From Clostridia bacterium (GTDB lineage: Bacteria; Bacillota; Clostridia; UMGS1810), in assembly GCA_017502845.1 (NCBI GenBank), contig JAFVUE010000007.1:1-64000 (forward strand): a DNA stretch of 64,000 nucleotides, given 5' to 3'. A program made the position numbers and the translations under genes. Positions 30,468 to 38,234 of the stretch are shown here, one piece after another. Every line of letters starts with the position of its first letter. Within the stretch, counting starts at the first letter, position 1. The notes beneath the pieces are model-generated. The model ran no database searches. It had not been told where the DNA came from and saw only the letters and a program-made list of their open reading frames with translations.

Positions 30468-32213
30468 ATGAAAAAAAGAATATTGGCAATTGTTTTATGT
30501 GTGTTGATTTTCGCGTCAAACAATATATCCATTTTTGGTGCACCGATGGATGAAGAAACAAATACACAAAGTGATAATACTATCAAGTATATAAAAGCAG
30601 AAGAAGGTTATGATTATGGTAGTAATACCGTGTATATTGCAAGGGATAAAGAAACAAAACAGATTATACCTCTTTCAATAGGTCCTCTTGATGGATACAG
30701 TTATGCTTATCTACCTGCTGATAGCGATTTTATAGTTGAAAAAGTACAAAAATATAATACTCCATTCAATGATTTGGGCGAGAAATATATATACGATTTT
30801 TACATACATGAAATTTCGTCAAGAGAAGTGGTTTCGGGGTATGAAGATGGAAGTTTCAGACCTGATAAGAAACTTACAAGAGCAGAAATGGCAGCAATTT
30901 TTGTAAGAATGTTTAATATCCCGAAAACACAATCAGCGTCTTGCTTTGAAGATGTTCCCGAAAACCATTGGGCAAAAGCGTATATAATGGCACTTGTGGA
31001 TAAAGGTGTGTTTATGAAAGATGCAAATTTTAATCCCGATTCGGTTATCACTCGTGAACAACTTGTTGCCATGACATTTCGTATGCTTTCTGATATGGGG
31101 GAAATTGACACACAAGAAAAAGAAACAGATTTTTCCAAATATAAGGATATGAATAAAGTGTCTGATTATGCTGTAGTTTCTTACAAGACATTAACCCAGG
31201 AAAACTATATTCTTCCTAAAGAACTTGTGGAACACGATTTTATGGATTCTGCTGATGATGAATTATTCTGGCATCCTCAGCAATCTGTAACAAGATATGA
31301 ATGTTGTGAATTTTTATATCAGTTTATCCGCGTATTCTTTAATAATAACGCACCGGCAATTAAACGTGAGGATGCTCCGCAAGTTGACATACCCATTTTG
31401 GATGGTTCCACATCAACCTATGCAATAACACAAAACATATATAGTTCGTATTACCAAAATCACGGAAATCATCCTGATTTCCCCAAATCACACAGCAAAA
31501 CAGTTGCGTCTTATAAACGCCTGATTGATGGGGAAGTAGAAATGATATTTGTTCCTGATGCAGGGGAAGATGTATTAAAGTATGCAGAGGAAAAGAATGT
31601 GAAACTCAAGTTTATACCGATTGCAAATGAGGCACTTATTTTCTTTACGGGAACAAATAACAAGGTTGATAATATAACGACAGAACAACTTCACGATATT
31701 TATGTAAATAACGGTATAACCAATTGGAAATATCTTGGCGGAGATGATACTACACTTGCTGCTTATTGCAGAAATGAAGATAGTGGCAGCCATGCTCAGA
31801 TGGAACAGTTTATTCTCGACGGGAAAGAAATAAACGAGAATATATCCAGAGAACGTACTTCTATTATGATGTCCAGCATCCTTACTGATGTTGATGATTA
31901 TAACCGAACTAATGAAGGAGAATATGCTATAGGGTATAGTTTGTTCTACTATTATTTGGTTAATTCATCTGTACTTGGACCCGTTGATTTGAAATTTATG
32001 AGTATTAATGGTATAGAGCCAACTGAAGAAACAATTTCTGATGGAACATATCCATATACAACCAACTACTATGCTGTAATTCGTGATGGCGAAGATAATC
32101 CAAAGGTTGATGCTTTTGCAGAGTTGATGCAGGGGAAATATGGTCAAATGATAGCTACACAAAGTGGACTGGGTGTCAGAAGATACTATGGAGAGTTTGA
32201 TATTGCTGAATAA
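30468..32213 (+). CDS. SLH-domain protein fused to a PstS-like phosphate-binding domain
   Basis: Exported protein of 581 residues. A signal peptide (about 1-25) precedes SLH-type repeats that hold proteins to the cell wall: VVSGYEDGSFRPDKKLTRAE (about 118-137), FEDVPENHWAKAYIMALVDK (about 160-179) and a weaker third repeat. From about 307 a PstS-like periplasmic-binding domain begins with DGSTSTYAIT and contains NEDSGSHAQME. PstS proteins normally bind phosphate for an ABC importer, but no pst transport genes are nearby, so the ligand is uncertain. Genes with this binding domain and wall anchoring may act as phosphate sensors or scavengers. Confidence 0.82.
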   Translation: MKKRILAIVLCVLIFASNNISIFGAPMDEETNTQSDNTIKYIKAEEGYDYGSNTVYIARDKETKQIIPLSIGPLDGYSYAYLPADSDFIVEKVQKYNTPFNDLGEKYIYDFYIHEISSREVVSGYEDGSFRPDKKLTRAEMAAIFVRMFNIPKTQSASCFEDVPENHWAKAYIMALVDKGVFMKDANFNPDSVITREQLVAMTFRMLSDMGEIDTQEKETDFSKYKDMNKVSDYAVVSYKTLTQENYILPKELVEHDFMDSADDELFWHPQQSVTRYECCEFLYQFIRVFFNNNAPAIKREDAPQVDIPILDGSTSTYAITQNIYSSYYQNHGNHPDFPKSHSKTVASYKRLIDGEVEMIFVPDAGEDVLKYAEEKNVKLKFIPIANEALIFFTGTNNKVDNITTEQLHDIYVNNGITNWKYLGGDDTTLAAYCRNEDSGSHAQMEQFILDGKEINENISRERTSIMMSSILTDVDDYNRTNEGEYAIGYSLFYYYLVNSSVLGPVDLKFMSINGIEPTEETISDGTYPYTTNYYAVIRDGEDNPKVDAFAELMQGKYGQMIATQSGLGVRRYYGEFDIAE

Positions 32214-32369: not shown

Positions 32370-32427
32370 CAATATGGTTGTTTTAATTATACATTTGTTC
32401 AGGAAGGAAATACAATATGGTTGTTTT
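32370..32427. repeat. Direct repeat spanning the DMT transporter start
   Basis: CAATATGGTTGTTTT occurs at 32370-32384, near the predicted transcription start, and again at 32413-32427, where it contains the start codon. The first copy lacks a ribosome-binding site. Confidence 0.6.
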
Positions 32428-33304
32428 TCTTTGGGTAATGGCATATACTCTGCTCTTTATGTCCACCAACGGCATAATGAAAAAGGTACAGCAGGGAATC
32501 CCTCAATCTTTTCCTTATGTTGTGGGTGTCAATCTTATAAACAGTGTATTCGGTGCTATTGCCTTTTATTTTATAGGTAAGTTGCATATTGGTGTAGACG
32601 GTTATATACTTGGTTACGGTCTGATATTCTCACTTTTTGTTTCAAGTTGTATTATTCTTCAACTTGTGATGTACTCCAAAGTTTCCGTGGCACTTACAAC
32701 GCTTCTTTCAACCTGCGGCAGTATTATCACATCTATTGTTTACGGTATTGCTTTTTTGGGCGAACCCTGTACATGGCAACTTGTTGTTGCGGCGGTGCTT
32801 TTACTTGTAGCGGCAATATTGCCATGCCGTAAGATGCTCTCTGTAAAGTCAGGAGCAAGTGCGGTTGTCCTTTGTATCGTATGGTTTGCTATATGGGGCG
32901 CAAGGGCAATTTTCCAGAATACCTTTTCCAACGATCCCAATCTTCCCGATACAAACAGTATGTTTTTCTTTACCAATACATTTTCAATCGGTTGGTGTCT
33001 GATACTGTTCATTTTCTGCCGTGTTAAATACGGTAAGGACGAAATCCATAATATGCGAAAAGAAGTTTTCCGTCCAAAAGTTGTTCTTACAATGGCGGTA
33101 AACACACTTCCCTCAAACCTTGTTACGGTGGTAACTGTTATTCTTCTTCAGTTACTTCCTCTTTCCGTAAACAGTATCATAACCTCGTCTATGGGACTTA
33201 TAGGAACAGCCGTACTATCCGTATTTATTTTCCGTGAGAAACTGAGTAGAGACAACTACATAGCACTTGTACTTGCAATTATAGCGATTATATTAAAACA
33301 TTGA
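32417..33304 (+). CDS. DMT-superfamily (EamA-like) membrane transporter
   Basis: A 295-residue integral membrane protein with about ten hydrophobic helices and an internal two-fold repeat (about 1-140 and 150-295), the layout of drug/metabolite transporters. Each half ends with the family-type pattern of a helix rich in Gly and Ala (the second, GLIGTAVLSVFIFREKLSRD). The substrate cannot be told. AGGAAGGAAA precedes the ATG. It stands alone between its own promoter and a terminator. Confidence 0.8.
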   Translation: MVVFLWVMAYTLLFMSTNGIMKKVQQGIPQSFPYVVGVNLINSVFGAIAFYFIGKLHIGVDGYILGYGLIFSLFVSSCIILQLVMYSKVSVALTTLLSTCGSIITSIVYGIAFLGEPCTWQLVVAAVLLLVAAILPCRKMLSVKSGASAVVLCIVWFAIWGARAIFQNTFSNDPNLPDTNSMFFFTNTFSIGWCLILFIFCRVKYGKDEIHNMRKEVFRPKVVLTMAVNTLPSNLVTVVTVILLQLLPLSVNSIITSSMGLIGTAVLSVFIFREKLSRDNYIALVLAIIAIILKH

Positions 33305-33393: not shown

Positions 33394-34533
33394 TTAATCT
33401 TCCAATATTGTTGCCGTTATAAGTTTTGTTCTTCTCTCCAAAGAATCAATATAGGAAAATTCCTTTTCCGTGTGGCAGAAATCTCCTGTAGTACCGATTC
33501 CGCAAACAGTAGGCACACCTGCTATAACAGTATATGCTGCATCAGAACCTCCGCCGCTTTCTTTGTATTCGCCGATATCTTCAATGCCGTACTTTTTGCC
33601 GACGCTTTGAATCTTCTTAAATAATGCTATGTTTCCGTCGTTTTTCTCCATTGGCATTCTTTCGCTGTCAACTGTAAATGTAGAATTACTTCCACCTGTG
33701 TAATCTGTGTTTACAATCTCGCTTATTTTTGTGATCGCCTTTTCTTTGTCGGATGCACATTTCACACGGATATCAACCTGAAAACTGCACTTCGGAGCAA
33801 CAATGTTGATTCTCTCGCCACCGCTTATAAGGTTGCAACTGTATGTGATTCCGCCTCTTTCGCTTTGCTTTTGTATTCGGATAATCTTCTCTGCCGCCTC
33901 GCCAATGGCATTCACACCCTCGAAATACGCTATTCCCGAGTGAGCTGCCTTTCCGCAGACGTCAACGGTTAAACGGATAATTCCGCTTCGTGCCACAAGA
34001 ATTTCTCCCTCAACACCAACTTCGCAACAGAATGCACTTTCAAACCCACGGCTCATATCTTCTATAAGATTGATGCCGTCTTCTTTTGCAAGTGAATTGT
34101 CAATTTCTTCGTCGGATGTGATTATAAGCCGCAAAAGTTTTTTGTAACCGCATTCGCACAGTGCTTTCATAGAAAGGAGTGCAACGGCGATACCGCCTTT
34201 GCAGTCAATAACACCGGGACCGTATATTTTGTCTCCGTCGATTTTAACGGGCGGTTCTCCGAAAGCACCTTTGTCAAATACAGTATCGGAATGCGCGATG
34301 TATATGTGTCCTTTCTCGCCATCGGGATTGGCATCTACTATAAGATAATCAGCCGCACCGCCGAAAGAATATCTGTGTGCTTCAAATCCCTCGGAGATGG
34401 CAAATTTCTCGATAAAGTCAACAACGCTGTTGACAGAATCTGTGTCAACGCTGTTGCCCTCAAGATTACATACATCTTCCCAGAATTTTATGTATCTTTC
34501 TTTGTTGCTTTCGATGTAGTCAAATTCTTCCAT
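33394..34533 (-). CDS. M20-family metallopeptidase/amidohydrolase
   Basis: A 379-residue zinc-dependent hydrolase of the ArgE/DapE/carboxypeptidase G2 group. Ligands are visible in order: H and D around IAHSDTVFD, D in GPGVIDCKGG, the catalytic glutamate pair in ITSDEEID, and H in CHTEKEF near the C terminus. A dimerisation domain is inserted in the middle (about 180-290). The substrate is probably an N-acyl or peptide bond in the compound handled by the upstream operon genes. The start at 34533 follows the Gfo/Idh stop by one base and GGAGAAC lies upstream. Last gene of the operon. Confidence 0.88.
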   Translation of the reverse strand: MEEFDYIESNKERYIKFWEDVCNLEGNSVDTDSVNSVVDFIEKFAISEGFEAHRYSFGGAADYLIVDANPDGEKGHIYIAHSDTVFDKGAFGEPPVKIDGDKIYGPGVIDCKGGIAVALLSMKALCECGYKKLLRLIITSDEEIDNSLAKEDGINLIEDMSRGFESAFCCEVGVEGEILVARSGIIRLTVDVCGKAAHSGIAYFEGVNAIGEAAEKIIRIQKQSERGGITYSCNLISGGERINIVAPKCSFQVDIRVKCASDKEKAITKISEIVNTDYTGGSNSTFTVDSERMPMEKNDGNIALFKKIQSVGKKYGIEDIGEYKESGGGSDAAYTVIAGVPTVCGIGTTGDFCHTEKEFSYIDSLERRTKLITATILED

Positions 34534-34534
34534 A

Positions 34535-35488
34535 TCAGTTCTCCGCATATACTTTTTCAATTGTTTCTATAACTTTTCTACCGTAATATCCGTCAGGAGA
34601 AATACTTTCCTCGCCACGTATTGCCTTTGCAAATTCTATTAACTGATATTCGAAAGGACCGTATTCGGGTTCGGGAAGTTCAAGTTTTCTGAATGTTCCG
34701 CCTTTTTCATCGCATATGTGAAGTCCGCTATTGTCCGAACGGAGTGCGCCGTGAGTGAATGTATACGTTATCTGGTTCGAGAAGAATGTCTCATATCCGC
34801 ACAAGGATATGGTGCAGGGGATGCCATTGGCTCTGAATGAAATATTTGCGTGTCCCTCTACGTCAAACTCCTCTCTGTAGAAGTTGCCGCATTCTCCGTG
34901 AACATTGGTTATGTCTTCTCCAACGGTATAGAGTATTTTGTCAATCCCGTGAGCACCGTGGTTGATAATAATGCCACCACCCGCAAGTTTCTTATCAAGG
35001 AACCAACGGGGACGTGCATCAGCGAAATAATATTCGTTTCGCACTTCACTTATTGTAACGAGTTTTCCGAGAGTGCCGTTGTCTATATATTCCTTGATGG
35101 CACCAATGCCCTGAAAAAATCTCTGTATGTGCCCTATGATAAGCTTTGCACCGCTTTTCTCCGATGCGGCAATCATCTTGTCGCATTCTTCAACTGTGTT
35201 CGCCATGGGCTTTTCACAAAGTACGTGAATTCCTTTTTCAAGACAGAAAACCGTAGATTCACAATGGAGAAAATGAGGAAGGTTAATTATAACCGCATCG
35301 GGTTTTTCCTTTTCGCACATTTCTTTGTAATCTGTGTAATAGGGAACACCTAAATCTTTAGAATATTCCTTTGCTCTTTCTTCGTTAATTTCAGAGATTG
35401 CCACAAGTTCAAAATCCGAAATTTTGCTAATTGCCTTGGTGTGCGCCGAGGCGATTATTCCCATGCCTATTATTCCAATACGAATCAT
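34535..35488 (-). CDS. Gfo/Idh/MocA-family oxidoreductase
   Basis: NAD(P)-dependent sugar-type dehydrogenase of 317 residues. The N-terminal Rossmann fold has GIIGMGIIASAHTKAI (4-19) and the conserved CEKPMANTVEE (about 91-101) with the catalytic-loop lysine. The C-terminal domain contains GGGIIINHGAHGIDKILY, with a conserved histidine. The substrate is unknown; the family oxidises or reduces sugars, sugar acids and cyclitols. It overlaps the epimerase gene by one base. Confidence 0.88.
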   Translation of the reverse strand: MIRIGIIGMGIIASAHTKAISKISDFELVAISEINEERAKEYSKDLGVPYYTDYKEMCEKEKPDAVIINLPHFLHCESTVFCLEKGIHVLCEKPMANTVEECDKMIAASEKSGAKLIIGHIQRFFQGIGAIKEYIDNGTLGKLVTISEVRNEYYFADARPRWFLDKKLAGGGIIINHGAHGIDKILYTVGEDITNVHGECGNFYREEFDVEGHANISFRANGIPCTISLCGYETFFSNQITYTFTHGALRSDNSGLHICDEKGGTFRKLELPEPEYGPFEYQLIEFAKAIRGEESISPDGYYGRKVIETIEKVYAEN

Positions 35489-36504
35489 CAGTATTTTCCG
35501 CCTCTTTCTTCAAAGTGGGTAGGTTTGCCCAAGGCCCTGCCGCCGTCTTTAATCCATTCTGCCTGCCACTTGATAAGTGTGGATGCAGGTACATCGGGAT
35601 AACCGAATGTATCTATCATCTTACCTGCGTTTGAGAAGTATGCAATGTCGCTTTCTTCGCCACAGTAGATGGGTTCTTTGCCAAGGAGTGCACCCAGTTC
35701 TTCAGCAACTGCTTTTACAGAGAGAACTTCAGGACCTGTTACATTCATAATCTCAACATCTTCACTTGCATAGAGCAGACCACGGATAGCAATCTCGTTT
35801 GCGCTTCCCTGCCAGATAATGTTGAATACAGGTGTTGTAACACTAATAGGTTCGCCATTCATCAATCTTTCTGCAATGTCGTAGAGGACGCCGTATCTTA
35901 AATCAACAGCAAAGCTTAAACGGTACATAAATACTTTTGTGCCGAATTTCTTTGCGGCGTATTCGAATGAACGCTCTCTTGCGAGACAACTTGTAGCATA
36001 CTCGCCGATAGGACCTGTGGGTTCGGTTTCTTTGCTTCCGCCACAGTTGAGGGGAACGAGGGGATAGATGTTTCCTGATGAGAAAACAACTATTGAAGAA
36101 TTTTTGAACTTTTCGCAAACAAGTGCGGGGAGAACGCTGTTCATACCCCATGTCTGCCATTCGTTTCCGTTTGTACCGAATTTTCTACCTGCCATGTAGA
36201 TAATGTTCTTAACATCAGGCAGAGCGTTGAGCTGTGCACTGTCCTGCAGATCGCACTTTATAATCTCAACACCGTTGTCTGTTAAAAGTTTTGTAGCAAA
36301 TTCGTCTGTAAATCTTGATACTGCAATAACTTTTTTGTCAATACCTGCGGCTTTAACTGCATTCTGTGCAAGGAGTGAAAGGGTAGGGCCCATCTTGCCA
36401 CCTGCACCGAGAATCATAATGTCGCCGTCAATCTTTTTAATATCTTCAATCAGTGCTGCTGACGGGGTTGTCAGCATTTCGTTAAGTTTATCTTCTGTCC
36501 ACAT
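35488..36504 (-). CDS. NAD-dependent epimerase/dehydratase-like protein
   Basis: Extended SDR-type protein of 338 residues. The cofactor motif is MILGAGGKMGP (about 35-45). The usual catalytic tyrosine is seen in GEYATSCLAR, but the lysine expected four residues after it (YxxxK) is replaced by cysteine. It may therefore be non-enzymatic as an SDR, or use different chemistry. The start at 36504 follows GGAGGAAG at good spacing; upstream ATG codons are rejected for that reason. It lies between the DHDPS-family and Gfo/Idh genes. Confidence 0.8.
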   Translation of the reverse strand: MWTEDKLNEMLTTPSAALIEDIKKIDGDIMILGAGGKMGPTLSLLAQNAVKAAGIDKKVIAVSRFTDEFATKLLTDNGVEIIKCDLQDSAQLNALPDVKNIIYMAGRKFGTNGNEWQTWGMNSVLPALVCEKFKNSSIVVFSSGNIYPLVPLNCGGSKETEPTGPIGEYATSCLARERSFEYAAKKFGTKVFMYRLSFAVDLRYGVLYDIAERLMNGEPISVTTPVFNIIWQGSANEIAIRGLLYASEDVEIMNVTGPEVLSVKAVAEELGALLGKEPIYCGEESDIAYFSNAGKMIDTFGYPDVPASTLIKWQAEWIKDGGRALGKPTHFEERGGKY

Positions 36505-36506
36505 AA

Positions 36507-37556
36507 TCAATCTTCCTCCCATTTTGCAAGGTTTTCTTTTACAAATTCGTCATCTGTCAGGTAGGGGTACATAGCACAAACTCTGTCAAGTTCCTCTGCC
36601 TGTCCTGCTGATAATTTCTCGTCGGGGTTGATGCAACGAACAGACTTCATAAGTCCCTGACGGTAGAGAATTTCGTGAACACCGGGGATAGCACCTGCAA
36701 AACCGTTTGCCGCATCAAAGAGTGCAGCATTTGCATCAGTAATCTGTGCCGCAAGAGTGAGCCATTCGTCGTCTGCTTTTGCACCTTTGACTTTTTTGAA
36801 GAGGTCGCAAACGCTCTTTGTCCATACAGACCAATGACCAAGTAAACCGCCGTCAAAACCTCTTTCGATAATCTTGCCGTCTACTTTGAATTTATATGTG
36901 GTGAGGAGGTCAACGATGATGTTGTCGTCGTTACCTGTGTAAAGACCGATGTCGTTGTTTCTTGAAGACAAAGCAAGTGCTCTTACGACATCGCATGTGC
37001 TGTAACGGTTAAATGATGCGCACTTTATTGCAACAACATTTTCAATCTCGCAAATCTGTTTCCAGTAGTCGTAGCCAAGAACTCTGCCGCCACAAGCTGT
37101 CTGGAGATAGAAACCGATTACGGGCATGATTGCCGCAACTTTCTTTGTCCTTTCGATAAGGTAATCGTCGTCGTAATCAGCGAGACCGCCGGGGCTCAAA
37201 AGCACCGCATCAAAGCCGAGTGATTTTGCAATCTCTGCCTCTGCACAAACCTGCTCAATAGGACCGCAAACACCTGAAACCTTAACTATTGTTTTACCTG
37301 TCTTTGCTTCGTATTTTGAAATCTCGTCTGCCGCGATTTCAAGTACGGGTTTGAAAAGGTTTACTTTTGGATCTCTTATCTCAAACTGTGTTGTGTGTAC
37401 TGCGATTGCAATACCGCCTACACCGGCGTCAAGATAGTATCTGCAAAGTACTCTCTGACCGTGTTCGTTAAATGTTCCGTCGTCATTGAGTGCCAACGGA
37501 ATAGCGGGGATAACAGTACCGCCTTTAAGAATTTCTATTGCTTTTTCTCTGCTCAT
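36507..37556 (-). CDS. Dihydrodipicolinate synthase/N-acetylneuraminate lyase-family protein
   Basis: A 349-residue TIM-barrel class I lyase/aldolase. The Schiff-base lysine is visible in VVAIKCASFNRY and the conserved tyrosine in VIGFYLQT. The pocket motif GTTGE of DapA and NanA is not kept: the aligned segment reads AVHTTQFE. It is thus a family member of unknown reaction, perhaps cleaving or dehydrating a keto-sugar acid. The ribosome-binding site GGAGG lies ten bases upstream. It is the first gene of the operon, directly downstream of the TetR gene. Confidence 0.85.
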   Translation of the reverse strand: MSREKAIEILKGGTVIPAIPLALNDDGTFNEHGQRVLCRYYLDAGVGGIAIAVHTTQFEIRDPKVNLFKPVLEIAADEISKYEAKTGKTIVKVSGVCGPIEQVCAEAEIAKSLGFDAVLLSPGGLADYDDDYLIERTKKVAAIMPVIGFYLQTACGGRVLGYDYWKQICEIENVVAIKCASFNRYSTCDVVRALALSSRNNDIGLYTGNDDNIIVDLLTTYKFKVDGKIIERGFDGGLLGHWSVWTKSVCDLFKKVKGAKADDEWLTLAAQITDANAALFDAANGFAGAIPGVHEILYRQGLMKSVRCINPDEKLSAGQAEELDRVCAMYPYLTDDEFVKENLAKWEED

Positions 37557-37568
37557 AATACGCCTCCG

Positions 37569-37580
37569 AACTAATTAGTT
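37569..37580. promoter_or_regulatory. Candidate TetR operator
   Basis: AACTAATTAGTT is a perfect 12-bp palindrome between the predicted transcription start (near 37590) and the ribosome-binding site of the lyase gene. Its position suits roadblock repression by the neighbouring TetR protein. Confidence 0.5.
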
Positions 37581-37596
37581 ACTTTTTGATAATACT

Positions 37597-37625
37597 ATTC
37601 TATCACTAAAAAACGCATATGTCAA
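37597..37625 (-). promoter_or_regulatory. SigA-type promoter of the DHDPS-epimerase-Gfo-M20 operon
   Basis: On the minus strand: TTGACA (37625-37620), a 17-nt spacer and TAGAAT (37602-37597). The -35 box starts four bases after the tetR stop. Confidence 0.75.
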
Positions 37626-37628
37626 TAT

Positions 37629-38234
37629 TTACTTTTTAAGATAGCCGATTATCATATCCGCAACCATTTCACTTCTCTTTTTTGTTGCTTCTGTGTCTTT
37701 GAGGTCAATTTCAATAAGTTTTGGCATAGTGTATTTGTTTGAGAAGTAGGCAAATGCGAACATATTTATTGCAAACACAGTTTCGTTTATATCAATATCT
37801 TTTCGGAATAATCCCTCGTCAATACCTCTTTGCAATACTTTCTGCATGGCAACAACAGAACGGCTTTTAATGGGAACAATACCTGCCGAATCCACATAAG
37901 ATGCACCGTTTAAGTTTTCGTGCATAACGAGAGAAACGAAGTTGGGGTTGTTGCTTAAAAATTCAAATGAATTTGCAATTGTTTCTCTTAACACTTCGTC
38001 AGCAGGACGATTCATATCCTGACTGTTTTCCATATCGGCAAGTCGTCCGTAGACGTTGCCAAGTATAATTTTGTAAAGGTTCTCTTTGCTTTCGTAATGA
38101 GCATAGATAAGGCGCTTGTTGACTCCTGAAACCTCTGCGATTTCGTCAACTCTCGCTCCTGCAAAACCTTTCTTTGCAAATATATCCTCTGCGGCGGTAA
38201 GTATTTTTTCTCTTGTAATATCACTCTTTTTCAT
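37629..38234 (-). CDS. TetR/AcrR-family transcriptional regulator
   Basis: A 201-residue regulator with an N-terminal TetR helix-turn-helix (ILTAAEDIFAKKGFAGARVD, then YAHYESKENLYKII, residues about 11-55) and a helical ligand-binding half. It is transcribed in the same direction as the four-gene operon beginning 72 bases downstream and has its own promoter. A palindrome in that gap is the likely binding site. The inducer is unknown. Confidence 0.88.
   Translation of the reverse strand: MKKSDITREKILTAAEDIFAKKGFAGARVDEIAEVSGVNKRLIYAHYESKENLYKIILGNVYGRLADMENSQDMNRPADEVLRETIANSFEFLSNNPNFVSLVMHENLNGASYVDSAGIVPIKSRSVVAMQKVLQRGIDEGLFRKDIDINETVFAINMFAFAYFSNKYTMPKLIEIDLKDTEATKKRSEMVADMIIGYLKK

Follow-up and report, generated by a model that had tools for sequence, protein, structure and literature searches.

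The operon described here lies on contig JAFVUE010000007.1 of a gut Clostridia bacterium (GenBank assembly GCA_017502845.1), in a stretch of 64,000 nucleotides that was analysed as a whole and is called the window below. Five open reading frames (ORFs), all on the minus strand, span positions 33394-38234 (Table 1). They encode a TetR-family protein, a dihydrodipicolinate synthase (DHDPS)-like protein named LYA, a protein related to the extended short-chain dehydrogenases/reductases (SDR) named EPI, a Gfo/Idh oxidoreductase (GFO) and an M20 hydrolase. A Pfam search assigned TetR, DHDPS, Epimerase, GFO_IDH_MocA and Peptidase_M20 to these proteins, none of which reaches the cut-off of an NCBIfam model. 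The core of the operon, formed by EPI and LYA, is a real, widespread and uncharacterised module, probably catabolic.

The four enzyme genes are tightly packed. LYA and EPI are separated by 2 bases, EPI and GFO overlap by 1 base and a single base lies between GFO and M20. These distances were computed from starts with good ribosome-binding sites, the ATG at 36504 for EPI (longest ORF beginning at 36522) and the ATG at 34533 for M20 (longest ORF beginning at 34560). Between the TetR gene and LYA lies the promoter TTGACA-17-TAGAAT, which shares the top rank among promoter-like matches of the region. No transporter or kinase gene was found within 33394-38234; an EamA-type transporter gene is convergent, downstream and outside the operon (32417-33304, plus strand). 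An initial annotation of the window had proposed five genes on one strand with these starts, gaps, overlaps and order, a consensus promoter, and an operon devoid of transporter and kinase. The ORFs and their ribosome-binding sites agree with this description.

Table 1 Features of the operon
Feature	Coordinates	Strand	Evidence
TetR-family repressor (TetR_N + TetR_C_29), predicted local regulator	37629..38234	-	PF00440 4.6e-12, PF17938 1.7e-27
Enzyme-gene promoter TTGACA-17-TAGAAT, extended -10	37597..37625	-	11/12 matches
Putative operator GTAACTAATTAGTT, with perfect palindrome AACTAATTAGTT at 37569-37580	37569..37582	-	just upstream of the LYA ribosome-binding site
LYA, DHDPS/NAL-fold class I lyase; K178, Y150, VHTTQ loop, R184	36507..37556	-	Pfam DHDPS 22.1 bits
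EPI, extended-SDR-like, without YxxxK Lys	35488..36504	-	Pfam Epimerase 34.7 bits; ribosome-binding site GGGAGGA
GFO, Gfo/Idh/MocA oxidoreductase	34535..35488	-	PF01408 1.1e-31, PF22725 1e-16
M20 hydrolase, carboxypeptidase G2-like	33394..34533	-	PF01546 1e-20; closest structure 1cg2, E 2e-35

The EPI-LYA gene pair

LYA homologues were gathered from genomes of the window's class, of Bacilli, Bacteroidota and Planctomycetota, and from named contigs and plasmids, giving 92 stretches. Pair linkage was scored by hidden Markov model search on all ORFs of these stretches. Some of the 92 loci are close relatives, and the counts given here are upper bounds on independent cases. EPI directly adjoins LYA in 85 of the 92 loci, both being on one strand, and lies within one gene of it in three more (gaps of 725-853 bases). 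At locus L064, the two genes are 373 bases apart and LYA has an internal stop codon. EPI was not seen in three of the 92 LYA loci (L033, L137 and L145), the first of which belongs to Acidobacteriota. EPI is usually upstream of LYA (80/85 adjacent pairs). The reversed order is found in the window's genus and in the Actinomycetota plasmids of Rhodococcus and Glaciihabitans. The pairwise identities of EPI and LYA covary across loci (Mantel r 0.80, with 0 of 2000 permutations as high). The real unit of the operon is this two-gene core.

The pair is present in at least seven phyla (Bacillota, Bacteroidota, Planctomycetota, Armatimonadota, Verrucomicrobiota, Actinomycetota and Pseudomonadota), so that the term "orphan" used in the initial annotation has to be abandoned. 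Its occurrence is patchy, with 27 positive genomes among 391 of the window's class, 21 among 199 of Planctomycetota, 23 among 250 of the class that includes Bacillus timonensis and 4 among 247 of Bacteroidota. No description of the pair was found in curated families or in the literature searched, whose coverage left out most subscription journals, so that an earlier description is possible.

In the window, the operon is flanked by ligA-side genes and by gatCAB. In locus L061, from the same genus, it is found beside ROK, ceramidase-like and malic-enzyme-like genes, and no copy was seen in a further assembly of that genus (G002, 83% complete). Because the flanks differ and this assembly has no copy, the operon appears to be a mobile or repeatedly lost cassette. 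A GNAT acetyltransferase gene is located between or beside EPI and LYA on two alphaproteobacterial plasmids and one planctomycete plasmid (L038, L041 and L043). Elsewhere in the window (30468-32213, plus strand), an ORF encodes a predicted secreted protein in which S-layer-homology-type repeats are fused to a phosphate-binding-protein-like domain, as judged from its sequence.

Active sites of LYA and EPI

The Pfam DHDPS score of LYA, 22.1 bits, is exactly equal to the cut-off of 22.1. A search of the PDB with the single sequence gave no match and the family profile was used instead; it retrieved N-acetylneuraminate lyase (NAL) and DHDPS structures with an E-value of 3e-9. With the AlphaFold2 model (pLDDT 93), Foldseek gave TM scores of 0.68-0.75 to NAL and DHDPS chains, and a VIA comparison gave Z up to 33.6, with 2.2 Å over 293 residues. 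The Schiff-base lysine K178 is found in 92/92 sequences and the active-site tyrosine Y150 in 91/92. Profile, TIM-barrel fold, lysine and tyrosine together place LYA in the DHDPS/NAL superfamily (PF00701). Since K178 and Y150 are retained, LYA is catalytically plausible as a Schiff-base enzyme. The initial annotation had considered that the lyase does not keep the standard active-site pattern. In fact, the altered part is the carboxylate-binding loop: the GxxGE-type loop of NanA, which binds the pyruvate carboxylate, is replaced by VHTTQ (V53-Q57), with H54, T56 and Q57 in 91/92 sequences. R184 is also invariant, as are N209 and D210 of a GND motif. LYA scores 19.3 bits with the NanA equivalog model TIGR00683 (cut-off 382) and 18.6 bits with the 5-dehydro-4-deoxyglucarate dehydratase model NF002958 (cut-off 278). 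No structure of a single activity stands out in the fold search; the fold alone thus leaves the reaction unsettled.

EPI reaches 34.7 bits with Pfam Epimerase (cut-off 20.9), indicating a Rossmann fold of the epimerase type. Here too the family profile was used, as the single-sequence PDB search returned one weak match. The structure was modelled from a reduced alignment from which one plasmid-record row was left out. Its fold is that of an extended SDR, with TerB as the nearest structure (TM up to 0.75), followed by GalE-like UDP-sugar epimerases. Ser148 and Tyr175 are strictly conserved (89/89). Position 179, where the lysine of the YxxxK motif is expected, is never a lysine (0/89); it is a cysteine in 66/89 sequences and otherwise Ala, Thr, Val or Ser. 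This supports the earlier view of an epimerase deviating from the standard active-site pattern, though the serine and the tyrosine are kept. K43 and K114, the latter within an invariant KFG sequence (114-116), are conserved, and either of them could take over the role of the missing lysine.

Regulation, partner genes and proposed pathway

The TetR gene is a same-strand neighbour in 16 of the 92 homologous loci. The promoter and its spacing are kept in two same-genus relatives (L061 and L018). Downstream of it and directly before LYA, AGTAACTAATTAGTTCGGAGG is identical in three species of the window's genus, while the rest of the TetR-LYA spacer has diverged among them. Within the host assembly (820 kb), a search allowing at most one mismatch finds the putative operator GTAACTAATTAGTT only once. 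A relaxed motif, AACYnnnnRGTT, precedes operon genes in 13 of the 16 TetR loci, including Pseudomonadota (L041) and Planctomycetota (L136 and L144), versus 4 of the 76 loci without this TetR (Fisher 5e-10). At the sequence level, a repressor-family gene is therefore associated with a conserved palindrome at the target promoter. Because the palindrome has no second copy in the host genome and the relaxed motif is enriched at TetR-bearing homologous loci across phyla, the TetR protein is predicted to be the local regulator of the module, presumably as a repressor, with the palindrome as its predicted operator. An intrinsic-terminator-like hairpin lies between the TetR gene and the enzyme promoter in L061 (8860-9000) and L018 (850-930); the window has no such hairpin.

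The M20 protein contains both the catalytic and the dimerisation domains (PF01546, 75 bits; PF07687, 65.5 bits) and metal-ligand-type motifs (HSD, DCKGG, DEE, E and H). With the model NF004788 of the glutamate carboxypeptidase subfamily PRK06133, it scores 183.9 bits, below the cut-off of 349. For M20 genes, 15 loci have one no more than 2.5 kb from the pair and 3 have one farther out. M20 partners belong to at least two subfamilies, carboxypeptidase G2 (CPG2)-like in the window's genus and TIGR01891-type elsewhere. L-serine ammonia-lyase genes are near the pair in 7 loci and far from it in none; those tested score above the TIGR00720/TIGR00719 cut-offs. All seven loci also carry an M20 gene (P 9e-6; 3e-5 once close relatives are removed). 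At L158, a single operon contains, in this order, EPI, LYA, SdaAB, SdaAA, M20, Gfo/Idh, a solute-binding protein and two sugar permeases. Further partners are LplA/B/C-like sugar ATP-binding cassette (ABC) transporters, GH20, NagA, NagB-like, AGE-family, ROK, GH88 and heparinase II/III-like proteins. To judge from these assignments, the pair keeps catabolic, carbohydrate-oriented company and, in part of the lineages, an amide-hydrolysis branch probably releases serine.

All four enzymes seemed to be needed according to the initial annotation. The two nearest operons, L061 and L018, have the order TetR-LYA-EPI-M20 and no Gfo/Idh gene (the L018 contig ends within M20), and other genera do not have this M20 or this gene order; EPI-LYA-TetR-GFO is found elsewhere in the family. 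Being missing from the two nearest operons, Gfo/Idh is accessory and dispensable.

Two other neighbours were observed. An NRAMP-family transporter is encoded within the EPI-LYA operon in eight loci of Bacteroidota, Planctomycetota and Bacilli (L172:5721-6965, L022:5455-6669, L027, L032, L147, L156, L157 and L177). The metal-binding motif of NRAMP transporters is DPGN. GPGS is found in its place in 8/8 of these proteins, which probably carry something other than a metal ion. A protein resembling neutral ceramidase by eye, with no Pfam match, is encoded near the pair in Clostridia (L061:5521-6912) and Bacteroidota (L029).

We lean, with some reserve, towards a TetR-controlled catabolic operon built on the EPI-LYA core, in which M20, Gfo/Idh, SDR and lyase steps act on an amide-bearing substrate. 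This reading is based on the linkage and co-variation of the pair, the operator, the lysine and tyrosine of LYA, the altered SDR site of EPI and the recurrence of amide-hydrolase, Gfo/Idh and sugar-transport partners. A self-contained catabolic operon had already been proposed in the initial annotation, and the local regulator and the amino-sugar and carbohydrate genes recurring in homologous neighbourhoods are in line with it. TetR would bind the leader palindrome and block transcription until freed by a substrate-derived ligand. M20 would take off an N-acyl or amino-acyl group. For several other lineages, the compound freed would probably be L-serine, which the linked L-serine ammonia-lyase would convert to pyruvate. 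Gfo/Idh, where present, would oxidise a hydroxyl group carried by the sugar or sugar acid. EPI would catalyse a redox or isomerisation step that depends on NAD(P), its catalytic lysine being relocated (K114 or K43) or absent. Finally, LYA would bind a 2-oxo acid as a Schiff base, and either retro-aldol cleavage to pyruvate and an aldehyde or dehydration would follow. In view of the M20, Gfo/Idh, sugar ABC transporter, amino-sugar enzyme and L-serine ammonia-lyase partners, the likeliest substrate is a sugar or sugar acid that bears an amide and is taken up from the gut. Any named substrate deserves considerably less confidence than the general catabolic reading. We raise only tentatively the idea of an undescribed multi-phylum pathway for amino-acid-amidated (e.g. 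serinyl) sugars or uronic acids, in which an SDR-fold enzyme would operate despite lacking the YxxxK lysine and the carboxylate pocket of a class I lyase would be new.

Several observations weigh against a catabolic route through an amide. M20 is missing from 72 of the 92 stretches and the serine enzyme from 85, so that amide removal is not intrinsic to the EPI-LYA core. The near/far statistics taken alone reach only P 0.005 for M20 and P 0.014 for the serine enzyme, and related genomes inflate partner counts. The CPG2-type M20 was seen only in the window's genus, glycan neighbours vary from lineage to lineage, and SDH_alpha (serine ammonia-lyase) was not found in the host genome, whose assembly is 72% complete. 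As the standard SDR catalytic lysine is missing, the redox role of EPI is uncertain.

Other readings of the same data appear less probable. Among them, a dipeptide or N-acyl-amino-acid route, with M20 and serine ammonia-lyase as the main pathway and EPI-LYA handling only the released acyl acid, is unlikely but draws on the presence of M20 in 7/7 serine-enzyme loci and on Nitratireductor, where dipeptide-type ABC and D-serine ammonia-lyase genes are beside the pair. However, most loci have neither M20 nor the serine enzyme, and Gfo/Idh and sugar importers are equally common. We regard as somewhat more improbable still that LYA belongs to a diverged sialate route as an ordinary N-acetylneuraminate or nonulosonate lyase, with M20 as deacetylase and an epimerase nearby. 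The best Foldseek match of LYA is indeed the N-acetylneuraminate lyase of C. glutamicum, an AGE-family N-acylglucosamine 2-epimerase gene adjoins LYA in L160, and some loci have ROK kinases and BNR-repeat proteins. Yet VIA places DHDPS structures at least as high, the TIGR00683 score is far below its cut-off, VHTTQ replaces the GxxGE-type loop in nearly all members, the operon has no NanK/NanE set and AGE is beside the pair in a single locus. No curated sialate or diaminopimelate (DAP) enzyme model was matched, in agreement with the earlier statement that the operon fits neither route.

A biosynthetic pair is as improbable as the sialate route. LYA would condense pyruvate with an aldehyde, and EPI would reduce or epimerise the product for a surface sugar or a small natural product. 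DHDPS is a condensing enzyme. The closest solved fold to EPI is that of TerB, an oxidoreductase of terfestatin biosynthesis, with UDP-sugar epimerases next. However, the operon clusters show no recurrent glycosyltransferase or nucleotidyltransferase pattern; their recurring partners are importers, hydrolases, ammonia-lyases and solute-binding proteins, and the patchy local regulation by TetR, GntR or LacI proteins is typical for catabolism.

A two-enzyme core that gut, soil and marine bacteria from at least seven phyla have kept together, and for which curated families and the searchable literature gave no function, is a promising way into a missing nutrient route. Its operator, being conserved, offers a direct reporter assay for the inducer, and the altered SDR site of EPI is a testable mechanistic puzzle.

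Comparison with known systems

The trans-4-hydroxyproline route is a catabolic operon with a DHDPS-superfamily deaminase (PMC4113996). The window operon likewise employs a member of this superfamily, but it lacks genes for the proline racemase family, a D-amino acid oxidase and an aldehyde dehydrogenase, and this route does not account for it.

Among the M20 amidohydrolases, the window protein is closest to carboxypeptidase G2, from which it is set apart by its position next to a lyase-SDR core and by its score below the NCBIfam glutamate carboxypeptidase cut-off. EPI shares with TerB, GalE and UDP-glucuronate 4-epimerase the extended SDR fold, the GxxGxxG-type loop and the catalytic serine and tyrosine. 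It differs from them in the replacement of the YxxxK lysine in 89/89 sequences, whereas K43 and KFG are kept in its family. Finally, LYA has in common with the N-acetylneuraminate lyase/dihydrodipicolinate synthase superfamily (PF00701) the TIM-barrel fold, the Schiff-base lysine and the active-site tyrosine. It is distinguished from the solved members, with which it shares about 13-21% identity, by the VHTTQ loop, the invariant R184 and GND motif, and a longer chain (349 residues).

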